40,137 nt of DNA, taken from positions 1-40,137 of the forward strand of contig DYEP01000129.1 of the NCBI GenBank assembly GCA_020725675.1, in the 5' to 3' direction. Of the stretch, positions 721 to 37,129 are shown in pieces (the first letter of the stretch is position 1; each line of letters begins with the position of its first letter). The notes under the pieces were generated by a model. It saw only the letters and a list, made by a program, of their open reading frames with translations. It did not search any database and was not told the origin of the DNA. The stretch is from Symbiobacterium sp. Lineage in GTDB: Bacteria; Bacillota; Sulfobacillia; DUSP01; DYEP01. The position numbers were made by a program, and so were the translations under genes.

Positions 721-1686
721 CTACCAACCTCTTCCTGCACCCCCGCCCCCGCTTCGGCCGCCGCCAAACCCGCCCGAGGGTCTGCCTGCACCCCCAAAAC
801 CGCCACCAAACCACGGTCCCGGGCCTTTGGGCCTGACACTACCGGACTGAACGACCAACGGAGAAGTTCTGTACTGTTTTTCTACTGTGTACCCACACTT
901 TAAGCATTTGTAAATCTTAACAGCCAAGCCGGGGGTACTCGCTGTGGCTGGAACAATTACTCTGTCTATCGAAACCATCCGTGCCTTGCACTTTGGGCAT
1001 TTACGAGCCAGACCTGTGAAGAGCCTTGATACCACCAGCATTAGGATGATGAAAAACACACCTGCTATTACAAACGCGCCAATTGGGCTGGTTGAACGCT
1101 GCTCTGTGGTGGCATTTAGCTTTACATCATATGCTTCAGCAACGATCAAGGCCGCCTGCCGCAGCCCTGCAATAATACCCTGTGCAAAATCGCCGCGGGC
1201 AAAATGTGGGATTACATGTTCGTCCAGGATTTGTCCTACCATGCCATCGGTGAGTACGGGCTCAAGGCCGTAGCCTACTTCCACTTCAACGCGTCTCTCC
1301 TGTAGACAAATGAGCATCAAAAGACCGTTGTCGTAACCCTTCTTACCGATCCCCCACTGCTCAAAGAGGCGTACCGCATACGTCTTTGGATCATAAGGTG
1401 CAGAAGAGTCGACTATAGCAACTGCAAACTCCACTCCCGTACTTTGCTCCAGCTCAGACAGCATATTTTCAATGTTTTTTATACTGACCAAATCAAGGAT
1501 ACCAGCAAAGTCATTCGCATAGCCCCGCGGTGAGGGAAGCAACTCTGCAGGGTACGCTCTAAGAGGTACCAAGACCAGCAGTACAAGACATACAAAAAAC
1601 GCAAATAAGCCTCTGGCCTTCAAATAATGATACCTCCGATGTTTCATTCCCCACGCAATACTATCACAAATTCGGTGTTGCTTCAA
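721..1686 (-). CDS. TPM-domain (YgcG-like) membrane protein with a CxxC...CxxC zinc-ribbon-like segment and Gly-rich C-terminus
   Basis: Signal/TM, TPM motifs (YANDFAGILD, GVEFAVAIVDSS, YDNGLLMLICLQERRVEVEVGYGLE), CPKCKA...CLKCGY, and a GGGFGG...GGGGAGRGW tail. Confidence 0.88.
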   Translation of the reverse strand: MKQHRICDSIAWGMKHRRYHYLKARGLFAFFVCLVLLVLVPLRAYPAELLPSPRGYANDFAGILDLVSIKNIENMLSELEQSTGVEFAVAIVDSSAPYDPKTYAVRLFEQWGIGKKGYDNGLLMLICLQERRVEVEVGYGLEPVLTDGMVGQILDEHVIPHFARGDFAQGIIAGLRQAALIVAEAYDVKLNATTEQRSTSPIGAFVIAGVFFIILMLVVSRLFTGLARKCPKCKARMVSIDRVIVPATASTPGLAVKIYKCLKCGYTVEKQYRTSPLVVQSGSVRPKGPGPWFGGGFGGAGRPSGGFGGGRSGGGGAGRGW

Positions 1687-1708
1687 TGGAAAAGGTCCTT
1701 ACCTTTTT

Positions 1709-2809
1709 TCAGGAGAGTGTAAACACATCTACTTGCCGTTGAGAAATATAGACAGGAGTGTGGGAAAACTTGGCGTTTATCCAATTTGCCAATGTGTGGA
1801 GCACTGGCAATTCCGTTGCGAAGTGGCCCGCGTCGATTATCCCAAGTCCCCTTGCCAGAGCCTCTTGCGCCTCATGGTACTTAACATCGCCTGTTATCAG
1901 GATATCTGCTCCTTCGTGGCTTGCCTGCGTAACAAACGAGCCGCCACTTCCGGGGATAACCGCAACTGATGACACTTTCGTAGAAGCTGGCCCCACTAGC
2001 CTTACGCCTGTTCTGAGCGATTCCTTAACGCGAAGTGCCATGTCCTGAAGCGTGACCGGTTCATTGAGCCGTGCTATTCTTCCAAACCCATATACGTCTT
2101 GGCTGTTCTCGAGTGGGTACAGGTCAAAAGCAACCTCTTCGTAAGGGTGCACCTGGAATACCGCCTGCAGTACCTTTGCCACGTCTGCTTTTCTTACAAT
2201 GGTTTCGATCCTACACTCATCCACGGTCTCAAGCTTGTTTAGCTCTCCGATATAAGGGGTTGCTCCCTCAAGCGGGCAAAAACTGCCCTGGCCTTGCGTC
2301 ATGAACGTACAGTGGCTGTAATTTCCGATATGCCCCGCCCCGGCATCGCCTAGCGCTTTTCGTACCGCATCCTCGTGTCCTTTTGGAACAAATACTACAA
2401 ACTTGTAAAGCGGTGGGCTAAACCTGCCTCCAAACACTTTCTTCCCCGTCATACCGAGGGCAGAAAGCAGCGCCTCCGCAGTGCCTTCACGTGCCTTATC
2501 CAGATTAGTGTGCGCTGTATAAACACAAATACCGTTTTTGATGACTGAGCAAAGCGTGGCATCGGGCTCGCGATCCCAGTTGAGCCGCGATACCGGTCTC
2601 AACATAGCCGGGTGGTGAGTAATGATCAGATTTGCCCCATTTTCTATGGCTTCTGCAACAGTACCCGGGGTGAGATCCAGTGAAATGAGTACAGATGTGA
2701 CTTCCTGCCGCGAATCGCCCACCAGGAGTCCAGAGTTGTCCCATTCCTCCGCAAGATAAAGCGGGGCTCTTTCTTCAATTGTCCTCGTAATATCAAGTAC
2801 TCTGATCAC
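1709..2809 (-). CDS. Nif3-like dinuclear metal center protein (YqfO type)
   Basis: AEEWDNSGLLVGD, LIITHHPAM, YTAHTNLDKA, VHPYEEVAFDLYPL, and ILITGDVKYHEA motifs. Confidence 0.93.
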   Translation of the reverse strand: MIRVLDITRTIEERAPLYLAEEWDNSGLLVGDSRQEVTSVLISLDLTPGTVAEAIENGANLIITHHPAMLRPVSRLNWDREPDATLCSVIKNGICVYTAHTNLDKAREGTAEALLSALGMTGKKVFGGRFSPPLYKFVVFVPKGHEDAVRKALGDAGAGHIGNYSHCTFMTQGQGSFCPLEGATPYIGELNKLETVDECRIETIVRKADVAKVLQAVFQVHPYEEVAFDLYPLENSQDVYGFGRIARLNEPVTLQDMALRVKESLRTGVRLVGPASTKVSSVAVIPGSGGSFVTQASHEGADILITGDVKYHEAQEALARGLGIIDAGHFATELPVLHTLANWINAKFSHTPVYISQRQVDVFTLS

Positions 2810-3534
2810 TTCACTTCCTCCGTCTGAGAAATGGATACGAGCAACGCATGCAGGCGATTGAGCCTCATGGTGAGTTCACGATGTCGCTCTTTGGCCCTCT
2901 CGCTGCTTTGGCGGTCAAGCCGGGCCAGTATTCTCCGGTACCCTTGCATTTTATGGTGTATCCATCTCGTAAGCATAGGATGCCTTTTACTGTATAGTAC
3001 AGGACCAACTTCGTACAACGCTTCGTTGTCCACTGGGGTAAAGCCACCGTAAGCCACCACTATTATCTCGTAAAAACGTCCTCTCTCCTCTACTACTTCT
3101 TCGGCAAGGATACGATATGACGGACACAACCTGATCCGCAGTACCTCCCCTTGAATGGAAGGCTGCAGAATTAGGCATTTCATCGCCCTGGCTACTTCCT
3201 GACCGCGAAATAGGATATCTGCTATCATGCGCCCTCCCATCCCCGCGATGACCGCAACATCGCTCTCTCCTGGAGCAAGGGGCTCCAGGCCGTCGCCCAT
3301 CCTCAGGTCTACCTTCCCCGCCAGTCCTAGGACTTCGAGGAACTCCCTGGTGGCGTTGTACGGGCCTTCGGTGCGCTCGGTAGCAACCACTGATGGACAT
3401 TTGCCCGACATAATCAAATATGCAGGCAATAGCCCATGTCCAGTACCGATGTCAGCCACCGTGACGCCGTCCGGTATGGCCTCTGCAACTTTTCTAAGTC
3501 GCGGTGACAGTTCAAATGACCAGGACTTCAACAA
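2806..3534 (-). CDS. trmK: tRNA (adenine(22)-N1)-methyltransferase family
   Basis: VADIGTGHGLLPAYLI SAM motif, IAGMGGRMIADIL, and position next to the Nif3-like gene as in Firmicutes. Confidence 0.9.
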   Translation of the reverse strand: MLKSWSFELSPRLRKVAEAIPDGVTVADIGTGHGLLPAYLIMSGKCPSVVATERTEGPYNATREFLEVLGLAGKVDLRMGDGLEPLAPGESDVAVIAGMGGRMIADILFRGQEVARAMKCLILQPSIQGEVLRIRLCPSYRILAEEVVEERGRFYEIIVVAYGGFTPVDNEALYEVGPVLYSKRHPMLTRWIHHKMQGYRRILARLDRQSSERAKERHRELTMRLNRLHALLVSISQTEEVK

Positions 3535-3551
3535 AACATACCTCCCCGGGC

Positions 3552-4598
3552 TTACGGCAACAGAACGACTTTTGCTGCTTCCTGCGACAGAATCGCCTGA
3601 AAACCCTGTTCGAATTCTTCAAACTTGAACCTATGGGTGATCACAGGGGTCACGTCAAGCAGCCCTGACCCAAGCAGTGCGCTTGTCTTGTACCACGTGC
3701 TGAACATTCTCCTTCCAGTGATGCCTTCGATTCTGATGCCCTTCATTACCACGTCGTTACCGAGGTCGATTTCTAGAGGTCCGGGCGGTATTCCTAGCAT
3801 CGCGGCCCTTCCGCCATTCCGTAACGCTCGAAAGCACTGCCTTATCGCCTCAGGGTGGCCTGACATCTCAAGCACCACATCTACACCGTAGCCTCCGGAA
3901 AGGGACCTGAGAGTTTCCACCGGATCCTCGTGCCTAGGGTTGATCAGGTGTGTCGCTCCCATTCTTGCCGCAATAGACAACCTTTTTTCATTAGGGTCTA
4001 TCGCAAAAATCGCACGTGCGCCCGCTGCTTTAAGTACCCCCACAGAAAAGAGCCCTATGGGACCGCATCCGAATACCGCGGTCGACTCTCCTGTAACATC
4101 ACCAGAAAGCGCGGTATGCACCGCGTTGCCAATGGGTTCCAGCAAGCATGCGGTTTCCGGAGATAACACGGGGTCCACAAGCCAGAGGTTATCAGCAGGC
4201 ACGAGCGCATATTCTGCAAAACACCCGTTGATGTCCACTCCCAGGATGGTTACTTGGGCGCATACATGCTTCTGGTCAGTTCTGCACATCAAGCATTCGT
4301 TGCATATCACATGGCTCTCGGAGGTAACATAATCGCCGGCCTTCACCCGGGTTACATCACCAGCAACCTCGACAACGTGTCCAGAAAACTCGTGACCTAT
4401 GATAATCGGGGGGGTAATCCGGCCTGCCGACCATTGATCCCACTTGAATATGTGCACATCAGTGCCACATATGGAAGCAGCATCGACCTTCACCAGGGCG
4501 TGACCCGGCTGTATCCGAGGTATATCCACCACCTTGAGCTCAAGTCCAGGACCGGCGTGTGTTTTCATTACCGCCCTCATTTTCTCCACCCTCCGCAC
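3552..4598 (-). CDS. tdh: L-threonine 3-dehydrogenase (zinc-dependent MDR family)
   Basis: CGTDVHIFKWDQW, GHEFSGHVVEV, four-Cys zinc region (CNECLMCRTDQKHVC), ITGRRMFSTWYKTSALL, and adjacency to kbl. Confidence 0.92.
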   Translation of the reverse strand: MRRVEKMRAVMKTHAGPGLELKVVDIPRIQPGHALVKVDAASICGTDVHIFKWDQWSAGRITPPIIIGHEFSGHVVEVAGDVTRVKAGDYVTSESHVICNECLMCRTDQKHVCAQVTILGVDINGCFAEYALVPADNLWLVDPVLSPETACLLEPIGNAVHTALSGDVTGESTAVFGCGPIGLFSVGVLKAAGARAIFAIDPNEKRLSIAARMGATHLINPRHEDPVETLRSLSGGYGVDVVLEMSGHPEAIRQCFRALRNGGRAAMLGIPPGPLEIDLGNDVVMKGIRIEGITGRRMFSTWYKTSALLGSGLLDVTPVITHRFKFEEFEQGFQAILSQEAAKVVLLP

Positions 4599-4631
4599 CT
4601 CCGTTCAAGGGGCAGTGTGATGCTGTTCGGG

Positions 4632-5798
4632 TCAAGCCTGGATGCCTAGTTCATCCCTCACCCGGATGAATTGCTCGATTCCAAAATTCAGGTCGTCTTT
4701 GCTATGGGAGGCTGATATCATCGCTCGAATGCGGGCCTTGCCTTTCGGTACTGTAGGATAGCCTATCGACTGTGCAAACACCCCGTATTCAAACAGTTTC
4801 TTGCTAAAAGCCACGGCTACCGGCGCTTCCCCAAGCATAACAGGGGTGATAGGAGTAACAGATTTGCCGATGTCAAAGCCTGCCTGAGACATGCGTTGTT
4901 TAAAGTACCTGGTGTTATCCCAGAGTCTTTGCACCAGCTCGTCGCTCTCCTCAAGCAGGTCCACTGCAGCCAGCGCGGCACCTGCGTCCGCCGGCGTAAG
5001 AGCGCTGGAAAACAGGAATGGACGTGCTCGTTGTTTCAAATAGTCAACGAGTTCCCTGGTCCCCGCGACATACCCGCCGACCACGCCGAACGCCTTTGAG
5101 AGAGTACCTACCTCTATTTCAACCTGTCCGGTGAGACCAAAGTGATGTACGATACCACGTCCGTGCTCGCCCAGCACTCCTTCTCCATGGGCATCATCCA
5201 CCATGACTAGGGCTCCGTGTTTCTTCGCCACGGTTACAATGTCAGGCAGGGGCGCGATGTCCCCATCCATGCTGAACACTCCGTCAGTTACCACCAGTTT
5301 TCTGCGAGCCTGGTGCTCTGACAACTTCCTCTCCAGATCCTCGACGTCATTGTGAGCGTACCGTATGACTTTCGCCCTGGAAAGCCTGCAGCCGTCAATG
5401 ATGCTAGCATGGTTGAGTTCGTCGGAAAAGATGAGATCATCCTCGCCCACTATTGCCGGTATAGTAGCCAGGTTGGCTGCAAAACCCGATTGAAGCAGTA
5501 TGGTTGCTTCAGTGCCCTTAAAGCGCGCTAACCTTCTTTCACACTCAAGGTGAATGGACTGAGTTCCAGCAATCGTTCTTACAGCGCCAGGCCCGACGCC
5601 AAAACGGTCAATTGCCTCCTTCGCGGCGTCGCGAAGTCGTGGGTGATTTGCCAATCCCAGGTAGTTATTGGAACAAAGGTTCAGCACTTTTTTGCCGTCC
5701 GCAACAAACCAGGCATCCTGGGGAGACTGGATCTCCCGTATGTTAACCAGCAGTCCCTGGTTTGATAGCTCTTGGAGTTCTTCCCTCAAAAAGTGCAT
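4632..5798 (-). CDS. kbl: Glycine C-acetyltransferase (2-amino-3-ketobutyrate CoA ligase)
   Basis: [50 protein letters not shown] motifs, and a pair with tdh. Confidence 0.92.
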
Positions 5799-23946: not shown

Positions 23947-24399
23947 TTAAAGCCCCGCTTCTCTTAAGATTGCATCCTGCTCGCTGTTCATCCGCTCCCT
24001 GCCGTATTCGTCCGCGTCATCGTAGCCAGCGATATGCAGCACTCCGTGAGCAACGAGGACGGCAAGCTCAACAGCAAGACTATGGCCGTACTCCTCCGCC
24101 TGGCGGTTTGCAGTCTCTACCGAGATGATCACGTCGTGCAGGTCAGGTATATCGTATGGCACCTGCGGTTCGTCTGGCCCAGGTTCTCTCGTGGTGAAGG
24201 CCAAAACGTCCGTCGGTCCGAGGATTCCCTTGTAACGCTGGTGAAGCTCTGCTATCTGCTCGTCATCCACTAAGCTTATAGTAAGCTCGCCGGCAATGGC
24301 GCCACGTGTAGATGCGTGTAAGGCCACCTTTTCTAACAGCGCCAGGACCTCCTCCTCAATCTTTATCTTCTCCTGGTTGTTCAGGCACACCACTTCCAT
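23947..24399 (-). CDS. ybeY: Endoribonuclease YbeY (probable ATG about 24399)
   Basis: LVAHGVLHIAGYDDADE (H-x3-H-x5-D-like motif) and YKGILGPTDVLAFTTREPG. Confidence 0.94.
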   Translation of the reverse strand: MEVVCLNNQEKIKIEEEVLALLEKVALHASTRGAIAGELTISLVDDEQIAELHQRYKGILGPTDVLAFTTREPGPDEPQVPYDIPDLHDVIISVETANRQAEEYGHSLAVELAVLVAHGVLHIAGYDDADEYGRERMNSEQDAILREAGL

Positions 24400-26473
24400 C
24401 CTGCTGTCTCCCCTTTTCCATCTCGCGTAGCACACTTTCGGGATACTCAAGCCGAGGGTGAAAGATCCCTGATAACACCCTGACGAACGTATCACCGATG
24501 ACATCTAGATCCCTGAGCGTAAGGTCGCACCGGTCCAGCTGCCCGTCGTTCAGTCTATCCTTTATGATCTTCCTCACAACAGCCTCTATTCTAGCAGGGG
24601 TAGGTTTTGTCAAAGACCTTACAGATGCCTCAACCGCATCGGCTAGCATAACAATAGCTGATTCCCTGGTCGAGGGCTTGGGCCCCTCGTAACGAAAGTC
24701 CTGCTCTGATATCTGTATGTCCTTCCCGTTATCTAGCGCCTTAGTGTAAAAGAAGGATACAAGGGTAGTACCATGATGCGACCTTATGAACTCTACTATG
24801 GGCTCAGGCAGGTGATGCTCCTTCGCCATATCCACGCCGTCTTTTACATGGGATGTGATAATTAACGTGCTCAGGCTCGGTGACAGCTTCTCGTGCGGGT
24901 TATCTGTACCAAACTGGTTATCTATGAAAAAGTACGGACGCTTCACCTTGCCTATATCATGGTAGTACGCCCCGACTCTGGCCAACAGCGAGTCCCCGCC
25001 TACCGCCTCCGTAGCCGCTTCGGCGAGGTTGGCTACCATCACGCTGTGATGATATGTGCCGGGCGCCTCCATTAGCAATCTCTTCAGAAGCGGCTGGTTT
25101 GGATTGCTCATTTCAAGTAGCTTGATGGGCGTTATGATCTGAAAGAGGGTCTCAAGGTAAGGCAGGGAACCTATAGTGAGTATCCCGCATATCACACCAT
25201 TTAGTGCAGCCCAGGCGTATGTCTTCAGCGCTGTTACGTCCGCAAAGTATATATTGAGCAAGATGCCGCCAGTTACAGCCACCGCCAGGTTGCTCACCGA
25301 TACAAAGAAACCAGCTCGCATGAAATCTGAACGCTGCCCAACACGCATGACGCCATATACCCCGGCAATACCACTGAATATTGCTGCCAGCAAGAAACCC
25401 ACATCTCCACCGTACATCATCGAAACAGCTACTGAAATCAAAAGCCCCACTACGATGGCAAGCCGCGCTTCAAGTAAAGTAGCGAGCAACATTGTACCTG
25501 CTGCCACTGGTGCCAGGTAAAATGATATGGGTTTGAAAAGTTGGGCCAGCAATATGGTTCCGGCAATCACCAGTACCATGAGCAACAGCCTGGCTTCATC
25601 ATCCCAAATCTGTCGCGCAAACAGCCTCAGGTAGATAGCGACGGTGCCAAGGAGCAAAGCCGCGAGGAGGGCTGAACCCACCAGCTCACGAACGCTCCCG
25701 CCTGTCCTCAAAAGTCCGAGATCCCGAAGTATGGCGATATGCTCAGGCGTCACCCTGGTTCCTTTTCGAATGATGATCTCTCCGCGCGCAAACTTCACAG
25801 GCTCCACAGCGTCCATAGCCTGCTTCTTTCTTGCTTGGGTTTCCGCCTCGTTGAACATAAGGTTGGGGCGGAGCGCCGGCGGTCCCACCGAAAGCAGGAA
25901 TGTAATGATTTCCTTAGGCAGTTCCAAAGCCCTGATCTGCGCCTCGATCTGCCTTCTGTAATTCTCAAGCGCGTCTGCTTTGATGCCTGATTGCATCGCA
26001 GAATCCAGCATTTCCAGAAGCATAGTTTCCACTGTCTGTAAGGTTTCATCAGATGCGGAAAGGAGCGCTACTGATACGCCGTTGTCAAAGCCCATTTTCT
26101 CCAGCTCCTGGGCTTTTGCCTCTTCGTCAAGATCATCGTTTCTCCGCAGGTCAAAGATCAGCGAAAAGATCTCCTCCACTGATGATAGAACACTCTGAGC
26201 GACAGTGGCATCCTGATGGTATACGTCGGGAACCGCGTTGGCAGCCTGCTCTCTTAGGCGTTCCGTCGCAGTCTTATCGATCGCTTCCTTCGTTACAGTT
26301 ATGTCGCGCGGAGCTGCTTCCCCCACCTCTAGGTGCACGCGCATAGGAGTGAGGTTTGCATAAAGTATGGCCCAAAGGAAAAAAAAGGCCGTAACAAGCA
26401 GCGACACTCGTCTAATGATCCTGCTGGGAACGAATGATGAAAGTCTTGCCCAGTTAGACATGTTTCCGAACAA
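24356..26473 (-). CDS. 7TM-HD (YqfF/PgpH-type) membrane phosphohydrolase
   Basis: N-terminal TM and extracellular region, 7TM region, and HD domain GTYHHSVMVANLAEAATEAVGGDSLLARVGAYYHDIGKVKRPYFFIDNQ. Confidence 0.95.
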   Translation of the reverse strand: MFGNMSNWARLSSFVPSRIIRRVSLLVTAFFFLWAILYANLTPMRVHLEVGEAAPRDITVTKEAIDKTATERLREQAANAVPDVYHQDATVAQSVLSSVEEIFSLIFDLRRNDDLDEEAKAQELEKMGFDNGVSVALLSASDETLQTVETMLLEMLDSAMQSGIKADALENYRRQIEAQIRALELPKEIITFLLSVGPPALRPNLMFNEAETQARKKQAMDAVEPVKFARGEIIIRKGTRVTPEHIAILRDLGLLRTGGSVRELVGSALLAALLLGTVAIYLRLFARQIWDDEARLLLMVLVIAGTILLAQLFKPISFYLAPVAAGTMLLATLLEARLAIVVGLLISVAVSMMYGGDVGFLLAAIFSGIAGVYGVMRVGQRSDFMRAGFFVSVSNLAVAVTGGILLNIYFADVTALKTYAWAALNGVICGILTIGSLPYLETLFQIITPIKLLEMSNPNQPLLKRLLMEAPGTYHHSVMVANLAEAATEAVGGDSLLARVGAYYHDIGKVKRPYFFIDNQFGTDNPHEKLSPSLSTLIITSHVKDGVDMAKEHHLPEPIVEFIRSHHGTTLVSFFYTKALDNGKDIQISEQDFRYEGPKPSTRESAIVMLADAVEASVRSLTKPTPARIEAVVRKIIKDRLNDGQLDRCDLTLRDLDVIGDTFVRVLSGIFHPRLEYPESVLREMEKGRQQDGSGVPEQPGEDKD

Positions 26474-28719: not shown

Positions 28720-29001
28720 TCATTGGTGGTTGAACTCGACACCTCTGATGCGCCCTACTACCGTGATCTCCTCCTTGAGTATGGAAGCGATAGAAAGTCC
28801 GTAGCCACTAATGGTTATCGTTCCGACCTCTGCTGCCACCACCACTCGGTCAGGGGTATAAGACAGAATGCCTTTGTGATTTACGATTTCGACTTCAAGG
28901 TCCCCCAGCATGGTGATCCTGGGCAGGTCAAGTACCACGTCCTTTGGCATCTCGAGCAATTCCGTAAACTTTTTTCTCAAGTCGGCCAGCCTATCACTCA
29001 C
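28720..29001 (-). CDS. yqfC: Sporulation protein YqfC
   Basis: LPRITMLGDLEVEIVNHKGILSYTPDRVVVAAEVGTITISGYGLSI. Confidence 0.9.
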   Translation of the reverse strand: MSDRLADLRKKFTELLEMPKDVVLDLPRITMLGDLEVEIVNHKGILSYTPDRVVVAAEVGTITISGYGLSIASILKEEITVVGRIRGVEFNHQ

Positions 29002-29404
29002 GCTGATCCACCCCCTCCTGAAATGATATTCACCTGGTACTCACCGAATACTCCGCAAAGATTGCACATATTCCGCCCCGGATCGATCAGACATTCGGTC
29101 AGAATGCCTGCTAGTTCCTTATCTTCCTAATGAACTAAGACGGAAGAAGGATCTTCCCTCAGGGCAGCAAGATCGAGTCTACAATCAGGTGTTACATTGA
29201 AAAGGCGCCCGGAGTGTGCCCCACACCCACGTCATACCAGCAAAAGACCCGCATAATCCCCTCTTCGTCGCTCTCAAACGGAAATAAATTTATCAGTACC
29301 ATGCTTTCTGCAAAACACTTGTGCAACGACCAAAACAGAGCCAACACAGAAATGAGCATGGGATTATGACAAAGAGATTTCGAAATAGCGGGTCTTGCAT
29401 CATT

Positions 29405-29570
29405 CTACCAGGAGGTGGCCAGCATCTTTCAGAAAAGGGGGCGCCCCATGGTGGCTCACCCTGCGCAGCGTTGTAGGTATCCGCGCCAGGGTGAACCCCA
29501 AAGGGTTGAAGTGGGTAATCAGGCTCTCAAGGACAACTCCTTACAGTACAAGGAAGCGTCATCCGTTCGG
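29405..29570 (+). pseudogene. Possible decayed, frameshifted N-terminus of a tyrosine recombinase/integrase
   Basis: GGAGG then GTG GCC AGC ATC TTT CAG AAA (M-ASIFQKRG); the adjacent frame continues KGGAPWWLTLRSVVGIRARVNPKGLK and then the first frame resumes EVGNQALKDNSLQYKEASS. This resembles Arm-type integrase N-termini. No catalytic domain is present. Confidence 0.35.
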
Positions 29571-29633
29571 TCCCGCGGTCGCACAACGCCCAAGCAGGAA
29601 GACCCATCTTCGCTCGCTCTGCATATTGCCCTG

Positions 29634-30665
29634 TCATCCCTCGAACAGAAAGGTTGTCCCGTGGTCATCAGGTGTGCCTGAGCTCAAAAGACTTGAGACC
29701 ACTCTCCTGAGCATGCCAAATCGTTCCTCCGGTATGTGCAGTGGAACCACGCACCCGGGTCCAATTACTATTCCAGTGTCACCTACTTGGTCAAGCGCAT
29801 CTTTCACATGGGCTCTTAGCTCATCTTCGTCCGCAGTATGTAGTACTTCCCACTCGTCGATACCGCCTATCAACACCTTATCAGTCATCCTGCGTGCCTT
29901 GGATAGAGTGACTGAAACCCGTCGGTCATGCCAGTTGACCGCTTCCATCGGGTAGTCGATTAGCTCCTCGAACATCGGTTCCAGACCATGGATGTGTAAA
30001 ATGTTAAACCACATACTCTTCGTGATCTCAGACAGCACCTCGAGGTCGTAGGGTTTTCCGAACGTGGAGTAGTCCTTCCAAGAAAGCCTGTCCCTGGTTG
30101 CCATTTGTGTCGCAAAGAAGATGCCATCTACTCCCAGACGGCCCAGTTCTCTCACAAAAGCCCGTGTAGTAGCCGTAATCGTCTCAAGCCCTGCCAGCAC
30201 GAGGTCAGGATGCTCCTTCATGTGTGAAAATAGGTTGTCTCCACACATCTTGATGGCAGTGGTCAGTGGGCTAAAAACAGTACCAATGACCGGTACCTGG
30301 TTTTTGAATTCGGAAACAACCAGCGATGTGTAATAGAGTTCCCGACCCAGGGCACCTTCTTTAGGATCAAGTGGTTTAAGCCCTGTCCAGTCAAGGGGTT
30401 CCTTTATGCCGAACTCAATGACTTCACCCACTTCATCTTCCTTCTCGGGCCACCGGATTACTGACCCCCAGTCCTCCACGGAAAATAGGCCGTTGTAGCA
30501 GAGCTTTAGGAAATCCCATTCCCAGGCCTTTTGGTGCTGGCACGTCAGCGCAAAGAAGCGGTCTGGGTCTCTATCGATAATGGGTACATGTTTCCAGAGG
30601 CTGAGTGCGGGCCGATCTATGTCGCGTTTCTCCATGACTCTTCTTATTCTTTCTACGGGTTTCAT
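29634..30665 (-). CDS. Uroporphyrinogen decarboxylase (URO-D) superfamily protein, MtaA/CmuA-like fold, not canonical HemE (probable ATG about 30665)
   Basis: KPVERIRRVMEKRDIDRPALSLWKH, FDFLKL-like WDFLKLCYNGLFSVEDWGSV, ILHIHGLEPMFEELIDYPMEAVNWHDRRVS, and VLIGGIDEWEVLHTADEDE. The 'NWHDR...GGID' pattern is typical of the superfamily. Confidence 0.85.
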   Translation of the reverse strand: MKPVERIRRVMEKRDIDRPALSLWKHVPIIDRDPDRFFALTCQHQKAWEWDFLKLCYNGLFSVEDWGSVIRWPEKEDEVGEVIEFGIKEPLDWTGLKPLDPKEGALGRELYYTSLVVSEFKNQVPVIGTVFSPLTTAIKMCGDNLFSHMKEHPDLVLAGLETITATTRAFVRELGRLGVDGIFFATQMATRDRLSWKDYSTFGKPYDLEVLSEITKSMWFNILHIHGLEPMFEELIDYPMEAVNWHDRRVSVTLSKARRMTDKVLIGGIDEWEVLHTADEDELRAHVKDALDQVGDTGIVIGPGCVVPLHIPEERFGMLRRVVSSLLSSGTPDDHGTTFLFEG

Positions 30666-30690
30666 TCGGGGCTCTCCTCTCTTTTTCATT

Positions 30691-31980
30691 CTAAACAAAG
30701 TCAGGCATCAAGAGCCTGGGAAGGAATAGTAGCACATCACCGAGAAATACTCCCATCACGATGATGATCAGAGTGAGGATAACAAGCGGCAGGGCAGCCC
30801 GGAACGCCCTGGGGGCAGAGATCTCTCCGATATCTGACGCTATAAGGAGGCATATTCCGTAAGGTGGAGTGACCATGCCCAACGAGAGCGTAAGTACCAC
30901 AATAATCCCCAGGTGGACCGGGTGTACGCCTGCCATCTCTCCTAACCCCTGGATAATGGGGAGGAATATGATGATGGCCGTGATGGGGCTAAGGAACGTT
31001 CCGATGATCAGCAGCAGCGCCACAATCAGAAGCAGCACCCCCGTAGCTGACGCTGTGATGCCAGAAATTAGTGAAGCAATAGCTTCCGGAGCGTCCAGGT
31101 ACCCGATGAGCCACCCCATAATACCGGCGTTGGCCACGGCAAACATGGCAAGGGAGTAGTTTACTACTGAGTCTCCGAACACTCGTACCAGTTGTCGGAG
31201 CGAAAGCGAACGATAGACGCCCACGATGAGCAGCATTCCGTATACCACTGCGACCGCTGCCGCTTCCGTGGCGGTGAAAACCCCTCCCACGATTCCCCCG
31301 AGAATAATGACGGGAAGCATCATTGGTAACGCTGCATGTGCTAACGCACGTAACATGTCCCGGGGCGACCTTTTCGGGTTCGCGGGATAGCCCTTTTTCA
31401 GGGCCAAAAAGTAGGTGTAAGCCATCTGGACCAGCCCTATGACAACTCCGGGCAACAATCCCGCCAGAAACAGCGCACCTATAGACACCGTCCCCATGGC
31501 ACCATAGATGACCATCATAATGCTTGGAGGAATGATGACGCCGAGGGTAGATGACGCCGCAGTAATGGCTACGGAAAAATCCGTATCATACCCCGCCTTT
31601 TTCATCGCGGGAATGAGCATAGAACCGATTCCCGCAGTGTCTGCCGCTGCTGAGCCCGAAAGCCCCGCAAATAGCATGCTCACCATGACGTTCACGTGCC
31701 CCAGTCCTCCACGGACGTGTCCTACAAGCGCATCGGAGACGCGTACAAGTCTGTCTGTGATCCCACCGTCATTCATGAGCCGACCAAGCAAGAGGAAAAA
31801 GGGTACTGCAAGAAGCGGAAACGAGTTGACGCTGGCAAACATCTGATTAATGACGCTCATGAAAGGTAGCCCAAGGTGTGTAATGGTGATCATGGAGGAC
31901 AAACTCAATGCGAATGCCACCGGGACCTTCAATGCAACCAGTATAAAGAAGCTGCCCAGCAGAATCACAAGAGGGTTCAA
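30691..31980 (-). CDS. TRAP transporter large permease (DctM-type)
   Basis: About 430 aa, polytopic; PFFLLLGRLMNDGGITDRLVRVSDALVGHVRGGLGHVNV and GLSGSAAADTAGIGSMLIPAMKKAGY. Confidence 0.96.
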   Translation of the reverse strand: MNPLVILLGSFFILVALKVPVAFALSLSSMITITHLGLPFMSVINQMFASVNSFPLLAVPFFLLLGRLMNDGGITDRLVRVSDALVGHVRGGLGHVNVMVSMLFAGLSGSAAADTAGIGSMLIPAMKKAGYDTDFSVAITAASSTLGVIIPPSIMMVIYGAMGTVSIGALFLAGLLPGVVIGLVQMAYTYFLALKKGYPANPKRSPRDMLRALAHAALPMMLPVIILGGIVGGVFTATEAAAVAVVYGMLLIVGVYRSLSLRQLVRVFGDSVVNYSLAMFAVANAGIMGWLIGYLDAPEAIASLISGITASATGVLLLIVALLLIIGTFLSPITAIIIFLPIIQGLGEMAGVHPVHLGIIVVLTLSLGMVTPPYGICLLIASDIGEISAPRAFRAALPLVILTLIIIVMGVFLGDVLLFLPRLLMPDFV

Positions 31981-32471
31981 ACAGACCCCCCCTTCCTGGC
32001 ATAGGCGGCGATGGTACGCACCAGGTGATACGTATTCTCAAGATGGAAAAGCAGCATCCCTACACCGGAAACCGGGATCGCAAAGAAGAAATACGCTTGG
32101 GAAATGCCGATGGAGGTGGAAAATGTCTTAAGTCCCATCTTTCCGAACCTGTACCCATGGAAGATCATGACGTATATAAGCACGTATATGGAAACGGTAG
32201 CAATGGCATCAAGGGCCAAGTTCAGCGCGGCGAACTTCCTTGGAAAGACCTCCACCACGTAGTGTTTCTTTTGTCTGACCGCAACAGCTGACCCCAGAAA
32301 AACGGTCCACATAAAACATGCCAATGCCACTTCATTGGTCCAAAGAAGCGGCCAGTGAAAGTAGTTACGGGAAAGTACCTGGAGAAATATAACGAAAGTA
32401 AACACGGATAGCAGCACTACTGAAACAAAAATAAACACGCGTTCCAGTATGCGATTTACCAAAGTCAACAA
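31977..32471 (-). CDS. TRAP transporter small permease (DctQ-type)
   Basis: Four TMs, NYFHWPLLWTNEVALACFMWTVFLGSAVAVRQKKHYVVE; ATGA-type overlap with the large permease. Confidence 0.93.
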   Translation of the reverse strand: MLTLVNRILERVFIFVSVVLLSVFTFVIFLQVLSRNYFHWPLLWTNEVALACFMWTVFLGSAVAVRQKKHYVVEVFPRKFAALNLALDAIATVSIYVLIYVMIFHGYRFGKMGLKTFSTSIGISQAYFFFAIPVSGVGMLLFHLENTYHLVRTIAAYARKGGSV

Positions 32472-32509
32472 AGATCACCCCCGAAGGGGGGGAGGGGTTT
32501 TCCCTCCCC

Positions 32510-33538
32510 TTATTTCAACGCTCTGATCATTTGCAGGATGTCGGAAGCCTTCAGCTCTCTTGCCAGCTCATCGTGAAGTGGAGCCAGTGCCTCAACGAAC
32601 CTGGCCTTCTCAACTTCAATCACTTCTACCTTGTACTCAGGAAGCCTGGCCAGTATTTCCCTGTCCGCTTGCTTGCCTTTCTCCGTGCCCAGTACACCCG
32701 CCTCAAGCGCCACATCTTCTATGACCTTCCTGTATTGCTCTGGAATCTTGTCGTACGTCGTCTGGCTCATGCTGAAGTGGGTTACCATGTACTGGTGCTC
32801 GGTCTTTGAATGGTACCTCGCAACCTCATACAGTTTGCTCGAGAAGTATCCGCTGATGGTACTCTCAAATGCGTTGACCACTCCCGTCTGCATAGCGGAG
32901 TAGATCTCGTTCCAGGGCAGTGATGTTGGCACAGCACCGAGTTGAGACCACAGCTTACTCTCGATAGGAGAGCCGGGCAGCCGCATCTTAATCCCCTTGA
33001 GGTCCTCAGGAACCCGAACCGGTTTTATGTTGGTGGTCAAGTTTCTGGTACCGCCCCCCGAAAGAGAGAGCAGCCTGAGCCCCAGGTCCTTGTCCTCATA
33101 TAGTTTTTGGAAGTACTTGAAAACCGGGCTGTCCTCGCCGATAACTTTCTCGAAGTGTTCCTGGCTTTCAAACAGGTAACTCAGCCCGAAGATCCCGAAT
33201 TCCGGTACGAATGGAGCCGCGTTTTGTGTGCCACCAATTACAAAGTCTATGGTACCAATGCGCATCTCATCGATGGTGGTCTGGTCATTTCCTAACGTGC
33301 CACCCGGGTACACGCTGACTTTTACTTTACCGCCCGTGCGCTTTTCCACTTCCGTAGCGAAGTAGTTGGCCATATCGATCCACGGGTGTGGCTCGCTCAC
33401 GACTGTAGCCAGCCTGAGCTTGTACTCCCTGTCTTCGCCAGGTTGCATAACCGTTGAACCAGGCTTGCTACAGCCAGTGATCTGGGACGCAACAAGTACT
33501 GATAATAGTGCTAGGACCAGGAATCTGTTCATTGACAA
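32510..33538 (-). CDS. TRAP transporter substrate-binding lipoprotein (DctP-type)
   Basis: Lipobox ITGC; VVSEPHPWIDMANYFATEVEKRTGGKVKVSVYPGGTLGND and GGTRNLTTNIKPVRVPEDLKGIKMRLP. Confidence 0.95.
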   Translation of the reverse strand: MSMNRFLVLALLSVLVASQITGCSKPGSTVMQPGEDREYKLRLATVVSEPHPWIDMANYFATEVEKRTGGKVKVSVYPGGTLGNDQTTIDEMRIGTIDFVIGGTQNAAPFVPEFGIFGLSYLFESQEHFEKVIGEDSPVFKYFQKLYEDKDLGLRLLSLSGGGTRNLTTNIKPVRVPEDLKGIKMRLPGSPIESKLWSQLGAVPTSLPWNEIYSAMQTGVVNAFESTISGYFSSKLYEVARYHSKTEHQYMVTHFSMSQTTYDKIPEQYRKVIEDVALEAGVLGTEKGKQADREILARLPEYKVEVIEVEKARFVEALAPLHDELARELKASDILQMIRALK

Positions 33539-33560
33539 CTCACTCCCCCGTTACTTACCC

Positions 33561-33577
33561 CCGGCGACTGTCACCGG
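33561..33577. promoter_or_regulatory. Imperfect 17-bp palindrome upstream of dctP; candidate operator
   Basis: CCGGCGAC-T-GTCACCGG, arms match except one position. Confidence 0.4.
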
Positions 33578-33763
33578 CGGTCTATCAAAAATATTTTATC
33601 TACTATGTATTATAATAGATTTCTTTGTTTTCCGGTATAGGGTAGTTACTCCTGTGTTCACACATTTGCCCATTTTTCTTGCCACGGTCAGAGAACCCCT
33701 TGCCCTTCCGGGCTCAGGGCTTTCGCCTTCAATTGAATGTGCGGCCAAGCAGGTTTTTCCGAA

Positions 33764-33793
33764 TTGTCAAGTAGCTCCAGGCAGATATATAAT
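33764..33793 (+). promoter_or_regulatory. Promoter for the XRE-cupin regulator
   Basis: TTGTCA-N18-TATAAT about 75 bp upstream of ATG 33868. Confidence 0.6.
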
Positions 33794-33867
33794 GAAATGC
33801 GCAACTACGGAATATTGAAAAGTTTTCTTTGCCAAAAGTCTGACACTTGGGAGGAATTGATTTACCT

Positions 33868-34446
33868 ATGGCGAATTTCTTTAGTGACAGTGAACTCAAT
33901 TTGTTAAACATCGGTCTCAAGATCAAGGCGTTACGGGAAGAACAGAATCTTAAGGTTAAGGACTTGGCAGAAATGACAGGGCTCAGCTCAGCGCTGATCA
34001 GCCAGGTTGAACACGGGCACACTCAACCTTCACTTGAAACTCTGTGGAAAATTGCAAGATCCCTGAATGTGCCAATAGGGTTCCTTTTTGAACAGACAGG
34101 CAAAGAAGGATTTGCCATCGTGAAAAGACATGAACGCAAACAGCTTTACATGCCGTCGTCCAATCTACGCTATCAGCTACTATCGCCTGACCTGAACAGG
34201 AAGATCGAGATGATCCTCATAGTACTAGAACCTGGGCAGGTCCAGGAGAAAATGACTATCAGCCATGAGGGGGAGGAATGCGGCTATGTGATCAGCGGGC
34301 AACTGGGCATAATCTACGGAGATTCCGAGTACGTCCTCTCCGAAGGCGACAGCGTGTACTACGATTCGAGGATCCCGCACAGATTTTTCAATCCTGGAGA
34401 AGTGCAATCGATCAGCGTTTGGGCAATGACCCCTCCATCCTTCTGA
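33868..34446 (+). CDS. XRE-family HTH regulator with C-terminal cupin domain
   Basis: HTH: IKALREEQNLKVKDLAEMTGLSSALISQVEHGHTQPSLETLWKIARSLNVPIGFLF; cupin: EGEECGYVISGQLGIIYGDSEYVLSEGDSVYYDSRIPHRFFNPGE. Confidence 0.95.
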   Translation: MANFFSDSELNLLNIGLKIKALREEQNLKVKDLAEMTGLSSALISQVEHGHTQPSLETLWKIARSLNVPIGFLFEQTGKEGFAIVKRHERKQLYMPSSNLRYQLLSPDLNRKIEMILIVLEPGQVQEKMTISHEGEECGYVISGQLGIIYGDSEYVLSEGDSVYYDSRIPHRFFNPGEVQSISVWAMTPPSF

Positions 34447-34522
34447 GGGAGCGGGTCGGTCGCTTTCCCAGGATTGACTCTAAGACGCCGTACACAACAT
34501 AAAAAGGGGGTTTATCCTATCA

Positions 34523-35917
34523 ATGTACTCGTGGGTTCTATTCATCTACGTCGGGGTGATCCTGGCAATCGGCTTCGGTACTGCGCGTTATGTCAAAACC
34601 CTTGAAGATTTTGCTCTTGCTGGCAGAAACCTGTCTTTTCCCGTCTTGCTTGGTACGCTCTTTGCGTCATATGTCGGCGGTGCAACGGTAATCGGCTGGA
34701 CAGGCAGCTTTTACTCGCTTGGAATAGACTGGTGGTTCACTGCAGTTGGTGCTTTGCTGGGCGTGGCCGCAGCAGCGTTTATCATGTCAGAGCGGTGCAG
34801 GAGACTTGAGCAGTACACAGTGCCGGACTTGCTGGAGCTCCGGTACGATGCCAAGACAAGGGTCATTGGATCGCTCATGATCATACTGGGCGATGTATCA
34901 CTCATCGCGGTTCAGACCATATCTATAGCTGGCGTTCTCACAGCCTACTTCGGTTGGGAGAGGATACCGGCTATGATATTTGCCACCGTGGTCTTCATGG
35001 CCATCGCGCTAGTCGGCGGGATGATCGGTGTGGCTTTAACCGATGCAGTCCAGGCAGTGATCATAGCAGCCGGTCTGATGGTAGGTGTTGGCGCGGCTTT
35101 CAGTCACGCCGGCGGTCTTTCCGCTGTGTTTTCCAGCTTGCCCCCAGATTTTTTAAGCCCGCTGAACCACCTAACTCCCCAAAGTGCGTTCAACAATGCC
35201 ATAGCCGTGTTCGGAACTGTAGCTGTGTGGCAATCCATCATATTCTCTCGGGTCTTTGCAGCTAAAGATGTAAAGACCGCAAAGCGCGGAGTAGTGTGGC
35301 TCATCCCCGCCGGCTTCCTGGCATACTTCCTCGTTGCCATGCTCGGGTACTCCGCACGCGTGATCCTGGGACCGGGAGTTCCCGCCGGCTCTGTCTTTGC
35401 CAAGTTGGTGACTGAGGTTCTGAGCCCGGGTGTAGCAGTAGTACTCCTGGCTGTGGTGATTGGAGCCATAATCACAACTGTAAACTCGATTCTCCTGAGC
35501 GTCAGTGTAAACTTCACACGGGATCTTTACCAAAAGTTGTTCAGGAAAAATGCCGACTCAAAGGAACTGCTATTCGTGGGCCGTGCAAGTGTACTGGTGG
35601 TAGCTTTGCTTGCATTCTTGCTCGCAGCCGCTATGCCGGATATTGTCTCTGCAATTGTGTTTACGTATACAATGTACAGCGCAGCTCTTCTGGTCCCGCT
35701 CTATGGTGGCTACCTCTGGAAGAGAGCAACCGCTGCTGCAGGATTGCTGGGCGTAATCAGCGGGGCAGGTACCGCACTCACCTGGTACTTGCTTAAGAAT
35801 CCTCTCGGCTTGCCCCCGATGATCCCTTCAATAACTATCTCTCTGGTGGTCTTTGTGGTGGCGAGCCTCCTGACGCCTGAACCCTCTAAGGAGCAGCTAA
35901 AGGTCTTTGACGTGTGA
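34523..35917 (+). CDS. Sodium:solute symporter (SSS) family
   Basis: About 464 aa, 12-13 TMs; EDFALAGRNLSFPVLLGTLFASYVGGATVIGWTGSFYSLG and EQYTVPDLLELRY. Confidence 0.93.
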   Translation: MYSWVLFIYVGVILAIGFGTARYVKTLEDFALAGRNLSFPVLLGTLFASYVGGATVIGWTGSFYSLGIDWWFTAVGALLGVAAAAFIMSERCRRLEQYTVPDLLELRYDAKTRVIGSLMIILGDVSLIAVQTISIAGVLTAYFGWERIPAMIFATVVFMAIALVGGMIGVALTDAVQAVIIAAGLMVGVGAAFSHAGGLSAVFSSLPPDFLSPLNHLTPQSAFNNAIAVFGTVAVWQSIIFSRVFAAKDVKTAKRGVVWLIPAGFLAYFLVAMLGYSARVILGPGVPAGSVFAKLVTEVLSPGVAVVLLAVVIGAIITTVNSILLSVSVNFTRDLYQKLFRKNADSKELLFVGRASVLVVALLAFLLAAAMPDIVSAIVFTYTMYSAALLVPLYGGYLWKRATAAAGLLGVISGAGTALTWYLLKNPLGLPPMIPSITISLVVFVVASLLTPEPSKEQLKVFDV

Positions 35918-35925
35918 TTTGAGGA

Positions 35926-36681
35926 TTGGGAGTGCTGAACTTGGACATTACAAAACTCACCTGGCCTTCTATACAAGAAACACTACCGCTTCTGGACGCT
36001 CTGTTGATCCCGTTGGGTTCGACCGAGCAACATGGGCCTCACCTTCCAGTGAACAATGATACGTTCATCGCACGCAGCCTTGCAAGGCTCATCGTGAACG
36101 AGGCAGAAAAGCGAGGTAGGCGACTGGCCGTTGGCATAACAGTCCCGTTCGGTTGCTCTGATCACCACATCGCCTTCCCCGGTACTGTGAGTGTGAGTGG
36201 AGCAACGTACAAAAGCCTCATCAAGGAAGTGGCGCTTTGCTACAGAAGACATGGGGTGCGCGGATTGGTCTTCATCAACGGCCACGGAGGGAACAGCAGC
36301 ACCGCAAAAGCAGCGATCGAAGAGCTCAAAGCGGAGGCCGATTGGAAGTTGTTGTCCCTGTTCAACTATTGGGAATACTTGTATGATGTCGCCGTTGACG
36401 TTTTGGATTCTCGGTTCTTCTGCCACGCTTGTGAGGGAGAGACTTCACTGGCCAAGGCGCTCGGGCAACAGGTCTGGGAGGCTCAAGTATACGACGCGTT
36501 AAAAGATAACCCCTATCTTGCACAATATAATCTGCTCAATGGTGAAGCGTTTACACTACCCAGAGTAGATCAGATATCCGAAACGGGTGTGATCGGTGAC
36601 CCATCCAGAGCCACACAAGAGAAAGGGCATATACTGATCAGGGCTATCACGGATGCTGCCATTGGGCTGTTTACTGGATAA
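35926..36681 (+). CDS. Creatininase-family amidohydrolase
   Basis: LLIPLGSTEQHGPHLPVNNDTFIA, FGCSDHHIAFPGTVSVS, VFINGHGGNSSTA, and HACEGETSLAKAL. Confidence 0.93.
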   Translation: MGVLNLDITKLTWPSIQETLPLLDALLIPLGSTEQHGPHLPVNNDTFIARSLARLIVNEAEKRGRRLAVGITVPFGCSDHHIAFPGTVSVSGATYKSLIKEVALCYRRHGVRGLVFINGHGGNSSTAKAAIEELKAEADWKLLSLFNYWEYLYDVAVDVLDSRFFCHACEGETSLAKALGQQVWEAQVYDALKDNPYLAQYNLLNGEAFTLPRVDQISETGVIGDPSRATQEKGHILIRAITDAAIGLFTG

Positions 36682-36695
36682 CCAGAAAAAACCAG

Positions 36696-36727
36696 GTCCC
36701 CCTGCAATACGCCTCTCGCAGGGGGAC
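36696..36727. terminator. Hairpin terminator between convergent genes (better U-tract on minus strand)
   Basis: GTCCCCCTGC-N12-GCAGGGGGAC; minus-strand continuation CTGGTTTTTTC, plus-strand continuation TCCTTTC. Confidence 0.75.
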
Positions 36728-36742
36728 TCCTTTCATCAAGAG

Positions 36743-37129
36743 TTAAGTCCTCCAACCCGCCGCATAGGGTTTCCTTGCCCTGGGCGGGCCGAGTACCTCA
36801 GAGAGGACTATCCCTCGTATCAGCTCTTCGTCAGACAACGTGAGTGTCATTTCTGTGGGCTTACCTAAACGCTCATTATCCAGCAGCTCCACAGGCAGAG
36901 GCCTTGCAGGACCTTCACTCATAGACATCACCGGTTCCGGTACGCGCTCGGGTTCCACAGCCGGTACCTGAACCCTCTGTACCCGCCGTCCTGGCTCTTC
37001 TTTCGGTAGCATGGGACCAAGTGGCGGGTGGGGCCATTGGCTTCTCTTTTTTGGAGGTTCGCCTGCGAGTCTCCTGTAGACATTCAGGATGAAAATAAGA
37101 AGGAATACGAAGGTCATCAAGCCTTCCAT
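36743..37129 (-). CDS. Uncharacterised small single-TM protein downstream of floA
   Basis: ORF with N-terminal TM (FVFLLIFILNVYRRL), Pro/Glu-rich linker and C-terminal LSDEELIRGIVLSEVLGPPRARKPY; tight spacing to floA. Confidence 0.75.
   Translation of the reverse strand: MEGLMTFVFLLIFILNVYRRLAGEPPKKRSQWPHPPLGPMLPKEEPGRRVQRVQVPAVEPERVPEPVMSMSEGPARPLPVELLDNERLGKPTEMTLTLSDEELIRGIVLSEVLGPPRARKPYAAGWRT

Follow-up and report, generated by a model that had tools for sequence, protein, structure and literature searches.

Gene content and layout of the cassette

Analysis of the window, i.e., the whole stretch of 40,137 nucleotides studied here, revealed a cassette of 7.7 kb (29002-36742) located between a small gene on the floA side and yqfC, beyond which the gene for YqfD (PF06898) follows at the left flank. 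The cassette is composed of two arms facing outward from about 330 bp of intergenic DNA, namely dctP-dctQ-dctM with a gene of the URO-D superfamily on the minus strand, and genes for an XRE-cupin regulator, a sodium:solute symporter (SSS), and a creatininase-like enzyme on the plus strand (Table 1). All seven ORFs were found at the positions, on the strands, and in the order given in a preliminary description of this DNA, and all seven products exceeded the Pfam cut-offs.

Table 1. Features of the cassette and of the edges of its insertion site (positions in the window)
Feature	Position	Strand	Remarks
yqfC	28720-29001	-	TIGR02856 87.7 bits (cut-off 77.8); left edge of insertion site, outside the cassette
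URO-D-superfamily enzyme	29634-30698	-	PF01208 101.8 bits; final gene of the TRAP operon
DctM, TRAP large permease	30691-31980	-	PF06808 342 bits; TIGR00786 382 bits (cut-off 268)
DctQ, TRAP small permease	31977-32471	-	PF04290 86.7 bits
DctP, TRAP solute-binding protein	32510-33538	-	PF03480 251 bits; TIGR00787 201 bits (cut-off 175)
Divergent intergenic region	33539-33867		329 bp
XRE-cupin regulator (HTH_3 + Cupin_2)	33868-34446	+	ORF itself 33847-34446
SSS (sodium:solute symporter) permease	34523-35917	+	PF00474 164 bits
Creatininase-family metallohydrolase	35926-36681	+	PF02633 188.3 bits (cut-off 31.3)
Strong hairpin with T-run, terminator-like	36696-36727		12 pairs, 8 GC; separates the plus arm from the floA side
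Small gene, 128 aa	36743-37129	-	right edge of insertion site, outside the cassette; counterparts in eight relatives with conserved C-terminus EVLGPP or similar

In the minus arm, dctQ shares 4 bp with dctM, and dctM shares 8 bp with the URO-D gene, so that dctP-dctQ-dctM-URO-D was read as a single operon. On the plus strand, 76 bp lie between the XRE-cupin and SSS genes and 8 bp between the SSS and creatininase genes, these three being regarded as a second operon, and the stretch from the URO-D gene to yqfC (29002-29633) harbored no recognised gene. A survey of long ORFs showed that the three genes of the plus arm are the sole convincing plus-strand genes of the 40-kb window, the other long plus-strand frames overlapping minus-strand genes. 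Thus, the earlier statement that a run of minus-strand genes is interrupted here holds for this arm, but not for the TRAP-URO-D arm, which itself lies on the minus strand. As also described before, the cassette encodes two transporters of differing type (TRAP and SSS families) and two unrelated enzymes. Neither enzyme received an equivalog name, both scoring below the NCBIfam cut-offs. Elsewhere in the window, adjoining genes at 3552-5798 resemble, by eye, those for threonine dehydrogenase and glycine C-acetyltransferase.

DctP is probably a lipoprotein, judged by eye from an N-terminal stretch ending in ...ITGC, and the solved structures closest to it are those of TRAP binding proteins, among them that of the sialic acid receptor SiaP. 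For the XRE-cupin gene, the ATG at 33868 is a more likely start than 33847, since the homolog at locus L189 begins at the equivalent point with a similar upstream GGGAGGA. In regard to the intergenic region, the number of promoter-like sites (6) was close to that in shuffled sequences (5.8), so that only the single strong match, TTGTCA-18-TATAAT at 33764-33793 (+) with 11/12 matches, is of note; Rfam elements were not found in this region.

The insertion site and the occurrence of the two arms

To compare the site, we used eight relatives of the same class that carry floA and yqfC on one contig. In all eight, floA is followed by a small gene, whose product ends in a conserved EVLGPP-like sequence, and then by yqfC. 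Because the window's small gene at 36743-37129, which gave no Pfam match, is the counterpart of this gene, it was assigned to the floA side and the insert was limited to 29002-36742; the block as previously delimited was thus confirmed with a slight correction at its right edge. In six relatives, the gap between floA and yqfC measured 447, 571, 824, 867, 954, and 1471 nt and the cassette was absent, and in one further relative it measured 2245 nt with one extra gene, alanine-dehydrogenase-like by inspection. The nearest relative (G001, same order) revealed a gap of 6350 nt, as compared with 8139 nt in the window, and an unrelated insert of 5.5 kb. Judged by eye from its translations, this insert encodes a membrane protein of 196 aa and a protein of 1436 aa in which PAS-like, GGDEF-like, and HD-GYP-like features were recognised. 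In four additional relatives (L063, L065, L069, and L073), yqfC did not appear in the stretch fetched behind floA. The cassette therefore does sit within a housekeeping block, as had been proposed, the site being closed up and cassette-free in most of these relatives, and since G001 carries a different insert at the same place, the site between the floA-side small gene and yqfC is variable in this lineage.

GC and GC3 of the cassette did not depart from those of the flanks, and its composition thus bears no sign of recent transfer. A search of the cassette borders for long repeats or transposon ends yielded only short pairs of low identity. Insertion beside a tRNA gene was ruled out, the only tRNA genes of the window being located at 5.9-6.3 kb.

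The occurrence of the plus arm was followed with the SSS protein, which was found at E <= 1e-60 in five of 399 genomes of the phylum, the window's own included, and in none of the 153 other genomes of the class (154 searched, with that of the window). The best match, in a distant member of the Bacillota (G111, locus L189), belongs to an XRE-cupin-SSS-creatininase cluster of the same order, with identities of 57, 66, and 41%, respectively; a gene similar to old yellow enzyme/BaiCD lies on its other side, and TRAP or URO-D genes were absent from the 18 kb fetched. In G272 (L190:4697-10919), genes for SSS (54%) and creatininase (40%) homologs are followed by those for an activase and a glycyl radical enzyme, the latter scoring 1365.6 bits against NF043068 (trans-4-hydroxy-L-proline dehydratase; cut-off 1100).

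For the minus arm, a scan of contigs with the single URO-D sequence resulted in no matches; a three-sequence alignment was used as query instead, and the best 80 of 117 loci were kept. Among these, the only locus besides the window with the full dctP-dctQ-dctM-URO-D order was that of a Spirochaetales MAG (L102), with identities of 62, 56, 75, and 51%. This locus lacks the SSS-creatininase pair, the only creatininase homolog of the L102 genome is distant (E 1.5e-18), and a search of 295 genomes of this phylum revealed no other with a URO-D protein at E <= 1e-60. In L102, genes at 1029-4425 that by inspection encode EtfB, EtfA, and an FAD oxidase similar to GlcD face the TRAP-URO-D operon, which is a possible hint at the involvement of a 2-hydroxy acid.

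Altogether, the TRAP-URO-D arm was detected in two genomes and the SSS-creatininase pair in three, that of the window being counted in both, so that the term portable is based on few cases. Among the samples of genomes searched, the window's genome was the only one to harbor both arms; within this scope, the view of the cassette as one self-contained module lacks support, each arm being found alone elsewhere, and the lack of co-occurrence in any other genome, named in the preliminary description as a result that would refute this view, is what was observed. No paper joining a TRAP transporter, a creatininase, and a uroporphyrinogen decarboxylase was found either. As the XRE-cupin gene, which encodes the single regulator of the cassette, is located 5' of the SSS gene in both the window and G111, the regulator is tied to the plus arm. 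Only the divergent geometry points to a possible control of the TRAP arm as well, and an operator common to the window and G111 was not found (no shared word of more than 9 bases).

The URO-D-family and creatininase-like enzymes

The URO-D gene product scored below every NCBIfam cut-off, e.g., with 25.7 bits for HemE (TIGR01464, cut-off 302.95) and 53.8 bits for MtaA/CmuA (TIGR01463, cut-off 235.4), and was also far below the curated cut-offs for MtbA and MtaA. Comparison with 87 relatives revealed W35, H37, D62, K65, H235, H237, G238, W256, H257, G279, and C316 as near-invariant. Three of these residues form an H-x-H...C motif (H235 in 87/87, H237 in 86/87, C316 in 83/87) that differs from the H-x-C...C of the MtaA/CmuA methyltransferases by a His replacing one Cys; in an alignment with 4ay7, H235 corresponds to the His of LHICG, H237 to its Cys, and C316 to the Cys of PGC. 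The H-x-C...C motif of MtaA binds zinc, and the window enzyme probably binds a metal, with H235, H237, and C316 as putative ligands. An AlphaFold2 model (mean pLDDT 94.2) gave the methyltransferase 4ay8/4ay7 as the best PDB matches, followed by uroporphyrinogen decarboxylases. In a FastTree phylogeny of 92 sequences, the window enzyme grouped with those of L102 (support 0.97) and G161 (1.0). The next to join were the enzymes of G344 and of four loci from Acetobacteraceae (0.92), and nodes at greater depth lacked support. Members of the H-x-H...C subfamily occurred in Chloroflexota, Armatimonadota, Bacillota, Acetobacteraceae, and archaea among the best 80 of 117 loci.

Though the commonest neighbor families of this subfamily are RsmD-like (Cons_hypoth95), NUDIX, and DUF1028, several relatives lie beside transporter genes: TctA in L055 (G011), TctC-like binding proteins in L096 and L114, a peptide ABC system in L099, Liv-type ABC genes with two URO-D genes in tandem behind them in G161 (L201:3649-12002), and an MHS permease in L150 and L084, with MHS and MFS permeases in Acetobacteraceae. 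The density of same-strand matches to the transporter families tested was 1.8x within 3.5 kb of the URO-D gene compared with farther out, a modest difference. Genes similar to M24 creatinase/prolidase were found within 3 kb of it at seven loci and farther out at one (p = 0.018, with loci treated as independent, which they are not), and nearby genes also included those for a C45-type hydrolase, an Asp/Glu racemase, and a dehydrogenase-like product. The common thread of these neighbors is amino-acid or peptide-type compounds, and the combination of TRAP, TTT, Liv, peptide ABC, or MHS transporters with M24 genes suggests chemistry on an imported amino-acid-type acid. As a pathway marker, the wider subfamily was rejected because housekeeping genes adjoin most of its members.

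Two further groups of loci came up in this comparison. In Acetobacteraceae, L079:817-8636 and L084:2392-10330 harbor two URO-D genes, an M24 creatinase/DoeA-like gene, an alpha/beta hydrolase, MFS and MHS permeases, and an Asp/Glu racemase, which looks like an undescribed catabolic cluster. In Anaerolineae (L078, L082, L105, and L133), the surroundings of the URO-D gene include an HD-domain gene resembling that at 24356-26473 of the window; three of these four loci are also near yqeY, in a block resembling the surroundings of the window's insertion site, possibly by coincidence.

The creatininase-like enzyme reached 82.3 bits against TIGR04448 (creatininase, cut-off 235) and 111.7 bits against TIGR03964 (the mycofactocin peptidase MftE, cut-off 172), and was below the cut-offs for IolN and ArfB as well. 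Its putative metal ligands E, H, D, H, and E (in EQHG, NND, NGHGGN, and CEGETS) are kept in all close homologs compared; NGHGGN takes the place of NGHYEN in creatininase 1q3k. Homologs follow an SSS gene in G111 and G272 and, by inspection, a TctB/TctA-like pair in G131 and an ECF-type transporter in G080. Based on these scores and neighbors, the enzyme is a hydrolase that probably acts on an imported amide and, by these tests, is not a creatininase.

The adjacency of SSS-creatininase and the trans-4-hydroxyproline dehydratase HypD in G272 is a possible clue to the substrate of this pair. The best HypD match in the window genome (G000) scored 617.6 bits against the cut-off of 1100 for NF043068, so that the clue is not directly transferable and is kept as a hint only. 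This genome also carries (G000:C157; L215, L217) two tandem genes for glycyl radical enzymes with an activase gene in between, their products being over the broad TIGR01774 cut-off and under every equivalog cut-off tested.

Proposed roles and comparison with known systems

Based on the separability of the arms and the variability of the site, we favor two independent units over one pathway, and we consider it probable that the site between the floA-side small gene and yqfC holds two independently portable catabolic units. The divergent layout with one regulator would also suit a single co-regulated pathway, in which the XRE-cupin protein represses both operons and the transporters and enzymes share one substrate or handle a compound together with its product. 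The shared 329-bp divergent promoter region and the XRE-cupin as sole regulator are in line with such a pathway, but each arm occurs alone elsewhere (L102; G111 and G272), no second genome with both arms was found, and no shared operator was detected; we regard it as unlikely. That foreign DNA was wrongly joined during assembly or binning would agree with a genome assembly in 253 contigs and with an SSS gene that appears in no relative of the class; this seems very improbable to us, as both junctions lie within one 40-kb contig, GC and GC3 equal those of the flanks, and the nearest relative also carries an insert at the same site. The two modules thus look like neighbors that were acquired separately, not like one new pathway.

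In the two units, DctP would capture a carboxylated solute that is imported by DctQM, and the URO-D enzyme would be the first to act on it in the cytosol, using a metal bound by two His residues and one Cys. The XRE-cupin regulator would sense a second solute or its product and control at least its own operon, the SSS permease would import this solute, and the creatininase-like enzyme would open an amide bond in it. By analogy with the related loci, the substrates of both units are likely amino-acid-derived, i.e., an amide, a lactam, a hydroxyproline-type compound, or a modified peptide.

For the URO-D enzyme, corrinoid-type methyl transfer has to be weighed, in which an MtaA/MtvB-type enzyme would move a methyl group from the imported compound to a corrinoid protein whose gene lies elsewhere. 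Demethylases of the UroD superfamily are well documented (PMC13222342, PMC10418091), the best fold and sequence match is a methylcobalamin:CoM methyltransferase (4ay7/4ay8), and MtaA/CmuA-type models are the closest NCBIfam matches. However, TIGR01463 gave 53.8 bits where 235 are needed, one motif Cys position is His in 86/87, and no corrinoid protein was present among the window genes scanned or the 25 commonest neighbor families, which leaves methyl transfer with a low probability. A further reading, possible though on the whole doubtful, is that the H-x-H...C subfamily represents a new kind of metal enzyme, neither corrinoid methyltransferase nor porphyrin decarboxylase, which initiates the degradation of an amino-acid-type compound after import. 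Different bacteria would then have paired this enzyme with five or more kinds of transporter (TRAP, TTT, Liv, peptide ABC, and MHS), and the cassette described here would rank among the simplest forms.

Nothing in the cassette requires a new kind of system, and the cassette itself is an accessory locus for uptake, common in its general type. Its value is that it links the URO-D superfamily and the creatininase family, both large and for the most part without assigned functions, to transporters that probably import their substrates. Of all its parts, the H-x-H...C URO-D enzyme and its subfamily most deserve experimental work, and since DctP is one binding protein amenable to ligand screening, it gives a direct route to the substrate of this subfamily.

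As in TRAP operons with a 3' catabolic enzyme, DctP, DctQ, and DctM are over their cut-offs and an enzyme gene overlaps dctM; here the partner is of the URO-D family, a pairing found in one other genome (L102). The SSS permease belongs to the same family as PutP, its best equivalog by E-value (TIGR02121, 146.6 bits with 515.5 required), and PanF (123.8 with 328 required). With creatininase, MftE, IolN, and ArfB, the plus-arm enzyme has the Pfam family and the expected metal ligands in common, and anaerobic trans-4-hydroxyproline use is touched upon in G272, where SSS-creatininase is located directly upstream of HypD activase and HypD. Compared with the UroD-superfamily methyltransferases (MtaA, MtbA, CmuA, MtvB, and CdmB), no corrinoid protein or activator was seen near the window's URO-D gene, but its enzyme shares their fold (4ay8, TM 0.78-0.81, 20% identity) and retains two of the three motif residues, a His and a Cys.
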